From NCBI RefSeq assembly GCF_016862635.1, contig NZ_BONI01000015.1, positions 1 through 64,000 of the forward strand: a DNA stretch of 64,000 bases. The letters are read 5' to 3'. The position numbers and the translations under genes are program-made. Positions 54,507 through 57,345 of the stretch are shown here, piece after piece; position 1 is the first letter of the stretch; every line of letters starts with the position of its first letter. The DNA is from Catellatospora coxensis. Lineage in GTDB: Bacteria > Actinomycetota > Actinomycetes > Mycobacteriales > Micromonosporaceae. Under the pieces are notes generated by a model. That model searched no databases and was not told the DNA's origin. It saw only the letters and a list, made by a program, of their open reading frames with translations.

Positions 54507-55409
54507 TCAGGGGACGACGAGGGTGAGGTGGCGGGTGCCGGTGGCGATGGTGATGCGCTGGCCCCAGGCCAGGACGAGGTGGTCGGACTCGACGCCGTCG
54601 GCGAAGGCGACCAGGCGCTCGCTCTCGCTGGTCAGGGTGAGGCGCTGGCCGGAGCCGACGCGGCCGGCGGTGAGGCGTGCGCCGGTGGCCGGTGAGGGCC
54701 AGGCTTCGCGGACGAACCAGCACAGCTCGGACGCGTCCGGGCCGGGCAGGGTGTCGGCCAGGTCGCGCATCAGGGCCACCGACGCGCACCAGCCGGTGGC
54801 GCCCGTGCCGGTGCCGACCAGTACGCCCGACGAGGAGTGCCGTTCCTGCTCGCCCTGTGGCGTGGTGAGCAGGTAGCGGGAGGACTGGTGGGTCTGGTGG
54901 CCGATGTAGATCTCGTTGAGGCCGGCGAGCTGCTGGCCGTCATCGAGCGTGGCCACGGCCATCGCGCGCGACTGCGTGGCGGCGCGGCCGGCGAGCACCG
55001 CGGGCAGCAGGCCTGCCACGTCGCGGGCGGCGAAGCGGGCCAGCACGCCGGGGTTGCGTTCGGGCTCGGGGTTCACGCCGAGCACCGGCTGCCCGGCCAG
55101 ATACTTCGCCGCGTTCGCGACCAGGCCGTCCTGCCCGACGGTGACCACGATGTCCTCCGGCGCGAACAGGAACCGGGACAGGTCGTCGCGGTGCACCTGC
55201 CCGCGCCGCCAGTCCGCGGGCAGGGCGGCGCTGACCGTGGCCAGCGCCGCCTCCTGCGCGGCGTGCCGCGCCTCCACCTCGGCGATCTCCCTCCCCCGTT
55301 CCTTCAGGAAGTACGCCGCGGCGGCGCGCGTGCCGTGCCGGCCCAGCAGCTCGTCGAGCTCGCTGCGCCGGGACACCACGACCACCCGGGGAGCCAGCGT
55401 CGCGCTCAT
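54507..55409 (-). CDS. NAD-kinase-like protein with altered GGDGT motif
   Basis: 300 residues. The C-terminal two-thirds follow the NAD kinase fold. DIVVTVGQDGLVANAAKYL stands in place of the GGDGT loop (the Asp is kept, G and T are changed). PVLGVNPEPERNPG matches the region after it. LNEIYIGHQTHQSSRYLL corresponds to the NE motif, and SSGVLVGTGTGATGWCASVA to the TPTGSTAY phosphate-binding segment. It may be a kinase of NAD or another substrate, or a pseudo-kinase. GGAGG precedes ATG 55409 at a short spacing. It follows the SPFH gene by 48 bp and ends in the palindrome at 54427. Confidence 0.75.
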   Translation of the reverse strand: MSATLAPRVVVVSRRSELDELLGRHGTRAAAAYFLKERGREIAEVEARHAAQEAALATVSAALPADWRRGQVHRDDLSRFLFAPEDIVVTVGQDGLVANAAKYLAGQPVLGVNPEPERNPGVLARFAARDVAGLLPAVLAGRAATQSRAMAVATLDDGQQLAGLNEIYIGHQTHQSSRYLLTTPQGEQERHSSSGVLVGTGTGATGWCASVALMRDLADTLPGPDASELCWFVREAWPSPATGARLTAGRVGSGQRLTLTSESERLVAFADGVESDHLVLAWGQRITIATGTRHLTLVVP

Positions 55410-55457
55410 GCTTCCTCCTCGCTCCGCCTGTCCATGATCCGCTCCCGCATGCCTCGC

Positions 55458-56495
55458 TCAGCGGTCCGACGGGCCCGCGCCGAAGCGCGAGAGCAGGCCG
55501 GTGACCACGTCGGGCGTGACGGTGAGCTGGCCGATCTCCGGGAGCTGGCCGGCCAGCTCGCGCAGCGCCAGGCCCTGCAGCACCTCGGGCGACAGGTCCC
55601 GGTATGCCGCGAGCTTGGCTGCCTCGGCCTCGCCTTCGGCGACGCCGATCGCCCGTACGCCCGCGGCCTTGGCCTCGGCGAGCAGCTGCTCCTTCTCCGC
55701 CTCGGCGGCGTTGAGCAGCTTCTCGCGCTCGGCGCGGCCCTGCGCCTCGACGAGCTGCGCCGCGGCGACGAGTTCGGCCTTGCGGCGGGTGTTGGCGCCG
55801 TTCTGCTCGACGAGCTGCTGCTCGCGCCGGGCCAGCTCGATCTTGTTCTGGAGCTCGTTCTCGGCGATGCCGCGCTCCTGCTCGACGGCCTGCGCGCGGC
55901 GGGCGAAGGTGGCCCGGTCGGCCTCGACCTGCACCGCCTCCCGGGTCGGGGTCTGCAGCGCGCGCTCCAGCTCCGGCTCCGGCCGGATCGCCACCACGCG
56001 GGCGCTGACCACCTGGACGCCCAGGTCGGTCAGGCGCGGCTCGGCGCCCAGCGCGGCCGACACCGCCTCGCGCACCGCGGCGACCTCGCTCAGCGCCTCG
56101 GCCAGCGGCAGCCGGGTCAGCAGGTCCAGCGCGGGCTGCTGGGCCAGCTCGGCGAGCAGGGTGGCGATCTGGTCGAGCGGGCGGGCCCGCGCGGTGCCCA
56201 GGTAGGGATCGATCGAGAAGTCCAGCCGGCCGACCGCGACGGCGGGGTCGGCCACCCGGTAGGTCACCGTGGCCTGCACGGTGACGTCGGTGAAGTCGCT
56301 GGTGCGGGCGTGGAACAGCAGCGGCAGCTCGCGGTCGTCGACCGGCACCTCGCTGAGCACGGCGGTGAGCGGGCGGTACCAGAAGGCCAGGCCGATGCCC
56401 TCCCGCTTGGCCCGGCCGCGGACGCTGTGGCGCACCCAGTTCGTCGGCGTGCTGCGCAGGTGGCGCAGGAAGAAGCGCTTGGACACGTCAGCCAT
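55458..56495 (-). CDS. SPFH/band-7 domain protein without N-terminal membrane helix
   Basis: 345 residues. An SPFH domain (about 35-200) is followed by a long Ala/Glu/Arg coiled coil (about 200-300), then a short C-terminal domain (LSPEVLQGLALRELAGQLPEIGQLTVTPDVVTGLL). The flotillin-like fold is clear, but the usual hydrophobic N-terminus is absent (MADVSKRFFLRHLRSTPTNW), so it may bind a membrane peripherally or oligomerise in the cytosol. AAGGAG ten bases before ATG 56495. It is the first gene of the unit with the NAD-kinase-like gene, divergent from the Nudix/winged-helix gene. Confidence 0.88.
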   Translation of the reverse strand: MADVSKRFFLRHLRSTPTNWVRHSVRGRAKREGIGLAFWYRPLTAVLSEVPVDDRELPLLFHARTSDFTDVTVQATVTYRVADPAVAVGRLDFSIDPYLGTARARPLDQIATLLAELAQQPALDLLTRLPLAEALSEVAAVREAVSAALGAEPRLTDLGVQVVSARVVAIRPEPELERALQTPTREAVQVEADRATFARRAQAVEQERGIAENELQNKIELARREQQLVEQNGANTRRKAELVAAAQLVEAQGRAEREKLLNAAEAEKEQLLAEAKAAGVRAIGVAEGEAEAAKLAAYRDLSPEVLQGLALRELAGQLPEIGQLTVTPDVVTGLLSRFGAGPSDR

Positions 56496-56534
56496 CGTGA
56501 TCGTTCTCCTTCGGAGGATTCCCCGGTCCCTTTT

Positions 56535-56549
56535 TCGTCATGATGACGA
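56535..56549. promoter_or_regulatory. TCGTCATGATGACGA palindrome in the divergent SPFH-Nudix promoter region
   Basis: Two 7-bp arms around one central base. A further TCGTCA half-site lies at 56569-56574. The whole control region between the SPFH start (56495) and the Nudix-wHTH start (56592) is only 96 bp, so the site can control both. As the Nudix protein has an NrtR-like DNA-binding domain, it is the natural candidate binder (inference). Confidence 0.68.
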
Positions 56550-56591
56550 TAAGCTTCGTGATACATTCTCGTCAAGGTGGTGATAAATCAG

Positions 56592-57269
56592 ATGGCCGAC
56601 TATCCGGCGTTCTCCGTCACAGCCGATCTGGTGGTGCTGACGGTGCAGGACAACGAGATGCGGGTGCTGCTGGTGCGCCGGGGCATCGAGCCCTACCGGG
56701 GGCAGTGGGCGCTACCCGGCGGTTTCGTGCTGCCTGACGAGGACCTCGACGCGGCCGCCGCCCGGGAGCTGCGCGAGGAGACCGGGCTGACCGCCCCGGT
56801 AGGCCACCTGGAGCAGCTGGCCAGTTACGGCGCGCCCGGACGGGACCCGCGCGGCCGGGTGGTGACCGTGGCGTACCTGGCGCTGCTGCCCCACCTGCCC
56901 GCCCCGGTCGCGGGCAGCGACGCGGAGGGCGCGGCCTGGACGGCGCTACCGGTCGCGGAGCTGGCCTTCGATCACGCGCGCATCCTGGCCGACGGGGTGG
57001 AGCGCGCCCGCGCCAAGCTGGAGTACTCCCCGCTGGCGACGGCGTTCTGCCCGCCCGAGTTCACCATCAGCGAGCTGCGGGAGGTCTACGAGACGGTCTG
57101 GGGCGCCCGGCTCGACCCCCGCAACTTCCACCGCAAGGTGACTGGCACGCCCGGCTTCATCGAGCCCGTGGGCCGCAGCATCGCCGCCGAACGCGGCCGC
57201 CCCGCCCAGCTCTTCCGCCGCGGCCCCGCCCGCCTTCTCCACCCACCCATGCTCCGCCCCACCCCCTGA
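56592..57269 (+). CDS. Nudix domain-winged helix protein (NrtR-like regulator or hydrolase)
   Basis: 225 residues. The Nudix domain (1-135) has a complete box: G-x5-E-x7-RELREETGL in GGFVLPDEDLDAAAARELREETGL. The C-terminal part (about 150-205) contains FTISELREVYETVWGARLDPRNFHRKVTG, the winged-helix signature of NrtR, the ADP-ribose-responsive repressor of NAD genes. With an intact Nudix box it could also hydrolyse ADP-ribose or a related compound. GGTGGTGAT, matching the anti-Shine-Dalgarno with one change, sits seven bases before ATG 56592 and fixes the start. It is divergent from the SPFH-NAD-kinase-like pair. Confidence 0.85.
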   Translation: MADYPAFSVTADLVVLTVQDNEMRVLLVRRGIEPYRGQWALPGGFVLPDEDLDAAAARELREETGLTAPVGHLEQLASYGAPGRDPRGRVVTVAYLALLPHLPAPVAGSDAEGAAWTALPVAELAFDHARILADGVERARAKLEYSPLATAFCPPEFTISELREVYETVWGARLDPRNFHRKVTGTPGFIEPVGRSIAAERGRPAQLFRRGPARLLHPPMLRPTP

Positions 57270-57284
57270 CCGCCCACCCCTGCC

Positions 57285-57345
57285 GCAACTCTTAAAAAGT
57301 CGCGGCCTCGGAGCGTGTCCGAAGCCGCGACTTTTTAAGAGTTGC
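57285..57345. repeat. intergenic palindrome family GCAACTCTTAA-AGTCGCGG, copy 2
   Basis: 27-nt arms (57285-57311 and 57319-57345) with one mismatch and a 7-nt loop. It shares the arm core with the copy at 43352-43414, and here too sits between two convergent genes (Nudix-wHTH and NlpC/P60). Probably a bidirectional terminator. Confidence 0.9.

Follow-up and report, generated by a model that had tools for sequence, protein, structure and literature searches.

NrtR-type regulators and nicotinamide adenine dinucleotide (NAD) kinases of the mitochondrial type are the closest described counterparts of the proteins considered here. In SoNrtR the residues Tyr10, Phe15, Arg41, Asn43, Lys76 and Arg98 contact ADP-ribose, while AraR, an arabinose sensor of the same family, carries Gly at the Arg98 position (passages of PMC4666351). 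In canonical NAD kinases D189 (Mycobacterium tuberculosis (Mtb) numbering) contacts NAD from the neighbouring subunit, and mitochondrial NADK2 is itself an NAD kinase (passages of PMC8553519); a 2019 phylogeny treats the eukaryotic 'mito' NAD kinase clade as being of unknown provenance (passages of PMC6675116). Here we analyse a locus in a stretch of 64,000 nucleotides from Catellatospora coxensis (contig NZ_BONI01000015.1, positions 1 to 64,000; the window), where genes for an NADK2-type kinase-like protein, an SPFH/Band 7 protein and a Nudix protein with an NrtR-type winged helix-turn-helix (Nudix-wHTH) lie side by side. The three genes form a conserved unit that is shared across several phyla and is apparently undescribed.

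Gene linkage and distribution

The kinase-like gene (54507..55409, minus strand, 300 amino acids) starts 48 bp past the SPFH gene (55458..56495, minus strand, 345 amino acids), and the Nudix-wHTH gene (56577..57269, plus strand, 230 amino acids from a GTG, with the ATG at 56592 as its likely start) is divergent. The list of open reading frames (ORFs) agrees with the three frames and the spacing described in an earlier, sequence-only reading of the window, and the control gap of 96 bp given there is obtained when the Nudix start is placed at ATG 56592. Pfam scores exceed the respective cut-offs for Band_7 (55.6 bits against 23.6), NUDIX (80.4 against 21.1) and NrtR_WHD (PF21906; 53.5 against 27), whereas the kinase-like protein reaches only 18.9 bits with NAD_kinase (PF01513), under the gathering cut-off of 25.5. 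The SPFH protein has a charged helical C-terminal part and, as first proposed, no membrane helix, its highest 19-residue Kyte-Doolittle mean being 1.07.

Linkage was assessed in 128 distinct family loci (22 from relatives and the window, nine from the plasmid collection, 77 from GTDB and 20 from a phylum that is probably Planctomycetota, label unconfirmed), counting only kinase scores of at least 200 bits and removing the duplicates L038, L045, L089 and the window against L004. In 127 of them the gene immediately upstream of the kinase gene encodes an SPFH protein, the exception (L200) stopping at a contig end. A Nudix-wHTH gene is present within the fetched stretch in 96 loci, 85 times in divergent orientation and 11 times on the same strand, one of the latter loci (L032) having it about 4 kb off; in nine of the 20 loci from the probable Planctomycetota the order is Nudix, SPFH, kinase on one strand. 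These data confirm that the three genes form a conserved unit, and the scattering of orthologues that a gene-neighbourhood comparison might have revealed was not seen. No ORF in the locus sets examined matched both the SPFH and the kinase models.

Members of the kinase-like family were found in Actinomycetota, Pseudomonadota, one Treponema plasmid and the probable Planctomycetota. Relatives of more than 50% identity occur in 22 of 61 genomes, that of C. coxensis included, and three more genomes have weak matches only. In the plasmid collection 57 records hold kinase relatives, Rhizobium accounting for 42 and the remainder deriving from Streptomyces, Kitasatospora, Roseomonas, Cupriavidus, Methylomonas, Proteus, Providencia, Moraxella, Acinetobacter, Treponema and two uncultured sources; two of the Proteus records are 4 Mb long. 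The reciprocal query with the SPFH protein also returned 57 records from nearly the same genera, a comparison made at genus level and not record by record. At least 553 stretches of GTDB contigs encode a kinase relative; the GTDB set is the best 80 of these, and the breadth across phyla rests on the plasmids and on even genome draws, in which the candidates of most genomes were scored only in part. These draws returned matches in 12 of 296 Actinomycetota genomes (one match partial) and, at 1e-8, in 68 of 294 genomes of the probable Planctomycetota. In the latter phylum we counted 39 matches as strong (about 1e-79 or better) and 31 as intermediate, and 20 of each were taken for locus analysis.

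Two features of individual records deserve mention. A metagenome-assembled genome titled Acidobacteria (L082) behaves as Actinomycetota in the genome draw, and its title is probably wrong or outdated; its count as Acidobacteriota was dropped, the draw from its phylum coinciding with Actinomycetota places. In Proteus mirabilis (NZ_OL790811.1, L035) the module adjoins a TetR-family gene and tet(J), and on plasmid pHHV216 (L036) a truncated SPFH piece and a kinase-like gene adjoin tetR-tet(H); part of the module thus seems to travel with a tet resistance determinant in these two records.

The kinase-like protein and its relatives

The replacement of GGDGT by GQDGL, to which the sequence-only reading drew attention, is present in the window protein; it does not represent local decay, since the whole family shows it, and the protein retains the catalytic Asp. 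At the second position of the GGDG motif the family displays Gln in 115, Pro in seven and Arg in one of the 123 lettered rows, the other five of 128 rows being gapped. The catalytic Asp, D94, is present in 123 of 123 lettered rows, N165 and an ensuing Glu or Asp (E166 in the window protein) in all 125 lettered rows of the 128, T205 in 125 of 128, and S194 and W207 in all 128. A Ser replaces Mtb D189 in the entire family (128/128), in NADK2 and in all 16 rows of a bacterial group described below, while the nine canonical or cytosolic enzymes have Asp. Similarly, Trp occupies the position of Mtb Y202 throughout the family (128/128) and in NADK2, but in only two of those 16 bacterial rows. Judged by these motifs the protein is a member of a family with a GQDGL signature and is not a canonical NAD kinase; a canonical enzyme bearing a sporadic mutation was rejected, since GQDGL is family-wide.

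The NAD-kinase kinship claimed at the outset is significant by sequence; among solved structures the closest relative is mitochondrial NADK2 rather than the canonical bacterial enzyme. A profile of 16 sequences searched against the PDB gave human NADK2 as the best match (6e-21), with the next match outside NADK2 at 5e-7 and canonical enzymes no better than that; the 12 matched PDB sequences are named NAD or NADH kinases, with one putative kinase. When the canonical NAD kinase of C. coxensis was the query, NADK2 appeared only at 5e-4.

The intermediate matches from the probable Planctomycetota constitute a second bacterial group, termed SSG as it has the same S-S-G motif as the SPFH-linked family; its members mostly retain GGDGT. 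No SPFH gene was found in the fetched flanks of 20 SSG loci, and one of them (L183) has a Nudix-wHTH gene directly upstream. A profile of this group, built from 16 of the 20 fetched loci (L172, L173, L179 and L187 were omitted owing to long open frames), also placed NADK2 first in the PDB, at 5.7e-31, with the best canonical enzyme at 1.6e-22. In the phylum of G439, taken as Actinomycetota, it ranked eight SPFH-linked kinases above all others among the matches listed. In 10 of the 21 genomes searched (L170-L188, probable Planctomycetota; genomes may be incomplete) PF01513 matches nothing but the SSG kinase, which suggests that this protein serves as the housekeeping NAD kinase there.

Phylogenetic trees were built from these sequences, with the reservation that they contain a single, incomplete NADK2 sequence and that long branches and odd letter make-up were flagged. 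In the first tree the SSG group, the SPFH-linked kinases and NADK2 stand apart from the canonical and cytosolic enzymes (support 100/96), and the SPFH-linked kinases come out as a possible sister of NADK2 (98/88, the outlier L169 included). The second tree dispensed with L169, 1yt5 and L002 and used lengthened forms of L207 and L208, which had 12% of columns in the first. Forcing the cytosolic and mitochondrial enzymes of eukaryotes into one group was rejected in both trees (p 0.0001 and 0.0004, respectively), which speaks against the sister-clade picture in the passages of PMC6675116. Grouping NADK2 with the bacterial SSG group was not rejected (p 0.24, second tree, with a long-branch warning), and an SSG sequence (SSG_L171, 29%) has the highest identity to NADK2 of all rows. 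The outlier, encoded at L169:2983-3855, is NADK2-like with GGDN for GGDG and Trp at the Y202 position, and falls close to the SPFH-linked kinases, on a long branch.

The Nudix regulator and its operators

The regulator is NrtR-like, as the sequence-only reading held, in that both its Nudix and its NrtR_WHD domains pass the Pfam cut-offs and operator-like sites lie at its own locus. The Nudix box of the window protein is intact as reported, and a strict box is present in 63 of 68 regulators. With the NCBIfam NtrR equivalog model the window protein scores 136.3 bits, under the cut-off of 400. For structural reference we used PDB chain 3gz5, which we take to be SoNrtR. Five of the six quoted SoNrtR residues fall on this chain at one constant offset, Tyr10 lying outside the printed stretch, which supports the assignment without proving it; the module regulator of Proteus shares 73% identity with this chain. 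All 68 regulators retain Arg41 and Arg98, and the Phe15 position is aromatic in 35 of the 68 rows (those aligned there). As AraR has Gly where Arg98 is kept in the module regulators, the Arg argues for a nucleotide effector. In the regulator tree AraR sits beside two regulators of the probable Planctomycetota (L201 and L206; support 94/95, long branch), so a sugar effector is possible in that lineage. C. coxensis itself has a second Nudix-wHTH protein (L209:3672-4403, contig C14), up to 61% identical to module-type regulators; its gene adjoins, by eye, an adenylosuccinate synthetase-like protein and a possible kinase that carries a J-like domain.

The intergenic regions contain a 21-bp palindrome with the consensus TTATCGTCANNNTGACGANAA, derived from 175 matches. 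In the window two pattern matches lie 34 bp apart: operator B, SPFH-proximal, at 56532..56552 (TTATCGTCATCATGACGAAAA on the minus strand) and operator A, Nudix-proximal, at 56566..56586 (TTATCACCACCTTGACGAGAA on the minus strand). The palindrome of 15 bp first noticed at 56535-56549 is present and is the core of operator B, whereas the accompanying 'half-site' turned out to be a second, degenerate operator of full length. With up to three mismatches the window locus displays four matches (two places, both strands), compared with a mean of 0.01 in 100 shuffles.

In per-locus counts that still include duplicate loci, the 98 loci that have a Nudix gene divide into 76 with two sites, seven with one and 15 with none, the last comprising five proteobacterial or Treponema loci of the plasmid collection and ten loci of the probable Planctomycetota. 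Where the stretch has no Nudix gene (33 loci), two sites are present in six and one in four. Among the 82 two-site loci, 60 have a spacing of 34 bp and 10 a spacing of 33 bp. At up to one mismatch the site occurs in 43 of 151 genomes, that of C. coxensis included, and a reversed-pattern control in none. Among 61 genomes it is present in 18 of the 22 with the kinase gene and in one of the 39 without (p about 1e-10), and at one of the two sites in this last genome (G012) there are a Nudix gene and an SPFH frame that is incomplete. Two genomes, G065 and G090, carry the Nudix gene away from the SPFH-kinase pair, with an operator at each of the two places. Of 20 operator-bearing regions of relatives, 16 hold SPFH, kinase or Nudix genes. 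We infer from these patterns that the palindromes are operators of the Nudix-wHTH regulator.

Conservation of the palindrome upstream of orthologues, as the sequence-only reading envisaged, holds for the actinobacterial set; other lineages have other sites or none that are recognised. In the probable Planctomycetota the palindrome ATATATGC-N5-GCATATAT, or one near it, precedes the Nudix gene in five of nine same-strand operons (a count without chance control), with letters that differ from the actinobacterial operator and the same arm-spacer geometry. The other four of the 20 operator-bearing regions (L130, L131, L133 and L134) have an operator-like palindrome with one mismatch and no module gene within the fetched stretch, and may reflect chance or extra targets. 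Downstream of the Nudix gene of the window, between it and an NlpC/P60 gene, a 20-bp perfect inverted repeat with T/A runs (57287..57343, by eye) is a likely two-way terminator.

Discussion

The interpretation we favour, although we hold it with somewhat less than even confidence, is that the locus encodes an active, SPFH-scaffolded nucleotide kinase of the NADK2 type that is derepressed by a signal of NAD breakdown. The Nudix-wHTH protein would be an NrtR-type repressor that binds the two 21-bp palindromes and represses both itself and the SPFH-kinase operon, as the conserved sites, their co-occurrence with the genes and the two split cases (G065 and G090) suggest. A nucleotide from NAD breakdown, most likely ADP-ribose to judge from the contact residues and SoNrtR, would release the repressor, and actinobacterial repressors, their Nudix box being intact, could hydrolyse their own signal and so reset. 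The SPFH protein, having no membrane helix, may oligomerise into a ring or cage that holds the kinase, a role to which the strict gene linkage points. The kinase, with its changed phosphate loop, would phosphorylate NAD(H) or a close relative and feed a local pool of NADP(H) type under stress.

Several observations weigh against this proposal. The second Gly of GGDG, present in all nine canonical or cytosolic enzymes and all 16 SSG-type kinases, is Gln in the SPFH-linked family, and the Thr that follows the motif is Leu, changes that may alter or abolish binding of the donor. The 64 non-proteobacterial regulators lack two of the residues with which SoNrtR contacts ADP-ribose, Asn43 and Lys76: Lys76 is found only in the four proteobacterial ones and Asn43 in three of those four, the commonest letters at the Asn43 position of the other 64 being I, E, V, A and C, and the Lys76 position being Glu, a residue of the intact Nudix box. 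Of the 128 loci, 32 yielded no Nudix gene, some flanks being short, and no operator was recognised in 23 of the 33 loci without such a gene. In G028 the Nudix gene (contig C480) has an operator, and a separate SPFH-kinase pair on C235 (L017, L045) has no site within four mismatches; this genome therefore lends no support to joint control. Finally, the C. coxensis genome has no site at up to two mismatches outside the module, its three-mismatch places being on contigs C2, C31 and C89, and so no NAD-synthesis gene is seen under shared control. A wide NrtR regulon in this genome was rejected on the same ground, and the regulator appears to be dedicated to its own locus.

The changed phosphate loop is open to other explanations. 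The kinase-like protein may be a pseudo-enzyme, an NAD(P)(H)-binding sensor or effector subunit of the SPFH assembly that performs no phosphoryl transfer. The Gln in the loop favours either a changed donor or a sensor, GQDGL occurs in most members amid otherwise conserved active-site residues, and C. coxensis already has two canonical NAD kinases above the Pfam cut-off. Conversely, the (near-)invariance of the catalytic-base Asp, the NE/D motif and the Thr over 128 members argues for an enzyme, as a dead one need not keep its base, and we regard the pseudo-enzyme as unlikely, if a serious contender. It is slightly less likely still, in our view, that the protein is active on another substrate, such as ADP-ribose or a sugar nucleotide, with the unit clearing or marking an NAD-derived metabolite. 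Such a role would accord with the changed loop, with the regulator of ADP-ribose type and with the Ser that replaces the Asp contacting NAD from the neighbouring subunit; however, NADK2 has the same Ser and is an NAD kinase (passages of PMC8553519), and the matched PDB sequences bear NAD or NADH kinase names, apart from the single putative kinase.

That the locus is an anti-phage or plasmid-borne defence unit, altering the NAD pool on infection, is improbable. Its patchy spread in the Actinomycetota draw and its 57 plasmid-collection records, the two of 4 Mb among them, would fit such a unit; against it, no PADLOC model matched the kinase or the SPFH protein, the Nudix protein matching the candidate model PDC-S07 at 4e-7, and there was no match in phage records and none confirmed in viral contigs, outcomes on which a phage or defence origin was rejected. 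Chance neighbours with unrelated roles are scarcely credible, for although the Nudix gene can sit elsewhere in a genome, the linkage counts refute chance for the SPFH-kinase pair, and operator co-occurrence and the reordered three-gene operons of the probable Planctomycetota point the same way.

Returning to the scaffolded kinase that we favour, a bolder version of it can be framed, which we consider doubtful. The SPFH-linked and SSG kinases would be source kin of the mitochondrial NADK2 clade, and the module a scaffolded maker of NADP(H) whose repressor both senses and destroys ADP-ribose. If so, the locus would be a bacterial counterpart of compartmental NADP supply, with an SPFH assembly in the organelle's place, and sensing combined with hydrolysis of ADP-ribose would amount to a self-resetting metabolite switch.

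No description of an SPFH-NAD-kinase-Nudix unit was found in the open-access literature searched, most subscription papers lying outside that scope, and none of its papers pairs 'SPFH' with 'NAD kinase'; the matches listed in the literature search contained no link between NADK2 and prohibitins. The main text of Hinderhofer 2009 (PMC2636767) has no words beginning with kinase, Nudix or NAD. Through the module an SPFH subfamily of which we found no description acquires a strictly linked partner, a subfamily of NAD kinases is defined by sequence and operon, and mitochondrial NADK2 gains bacterial relatives. Taken together, the three-gene unit has the appearance of a regulated device that handles NAD-type nucleotides.

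Comparison with known systems

The canonical NAD kinase (PpnK/NadK) shares with the window family the catalytic Asp, the NE/D motif and the region II Thr, and differs from it in that the family has a broken GGDG, D189 changed to Ser and Y202 to Trp, and the window protein a sub-cut-off Pfam score. Human mitochondrial NADK2 (C5orf33; PDB 7n29, 7r4j) is closer, with Ser at Mtb D189, Gly at P196 and Trp at Y202 and, in the printed alignment, the DPER that follows the nucleotide loop and an RE near the C-terminus; it differs in having GGDGT where the window family has GQDGL, and Lys at T200. We know of no SPFH or Nudix partner gene for NADK2. With HflK/C and other SPFH proteins the window protein has the Band_7 domain in common, HflK being its best PDB match (2e-5), but it has no membrane segment and its gene is partnered by one for a kinase-like protein. 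The regulator resembles the NrtR family (SoNrtR, MsNrtR, NdnR and the AraR branch) in its Nudix domain and PF21906 winged helix, in the palindrome at its own promoter and in Arg41 and Arg98. In contrast to MsNrtR, in which the Nudix box is degenerate and inactive (passages of PMC6800001), the module regulators mostly have an intact box (63 of 68), and the predicted target is the SPFH-kinase operon, whereas that of the NrtR family is NAD synthesis.

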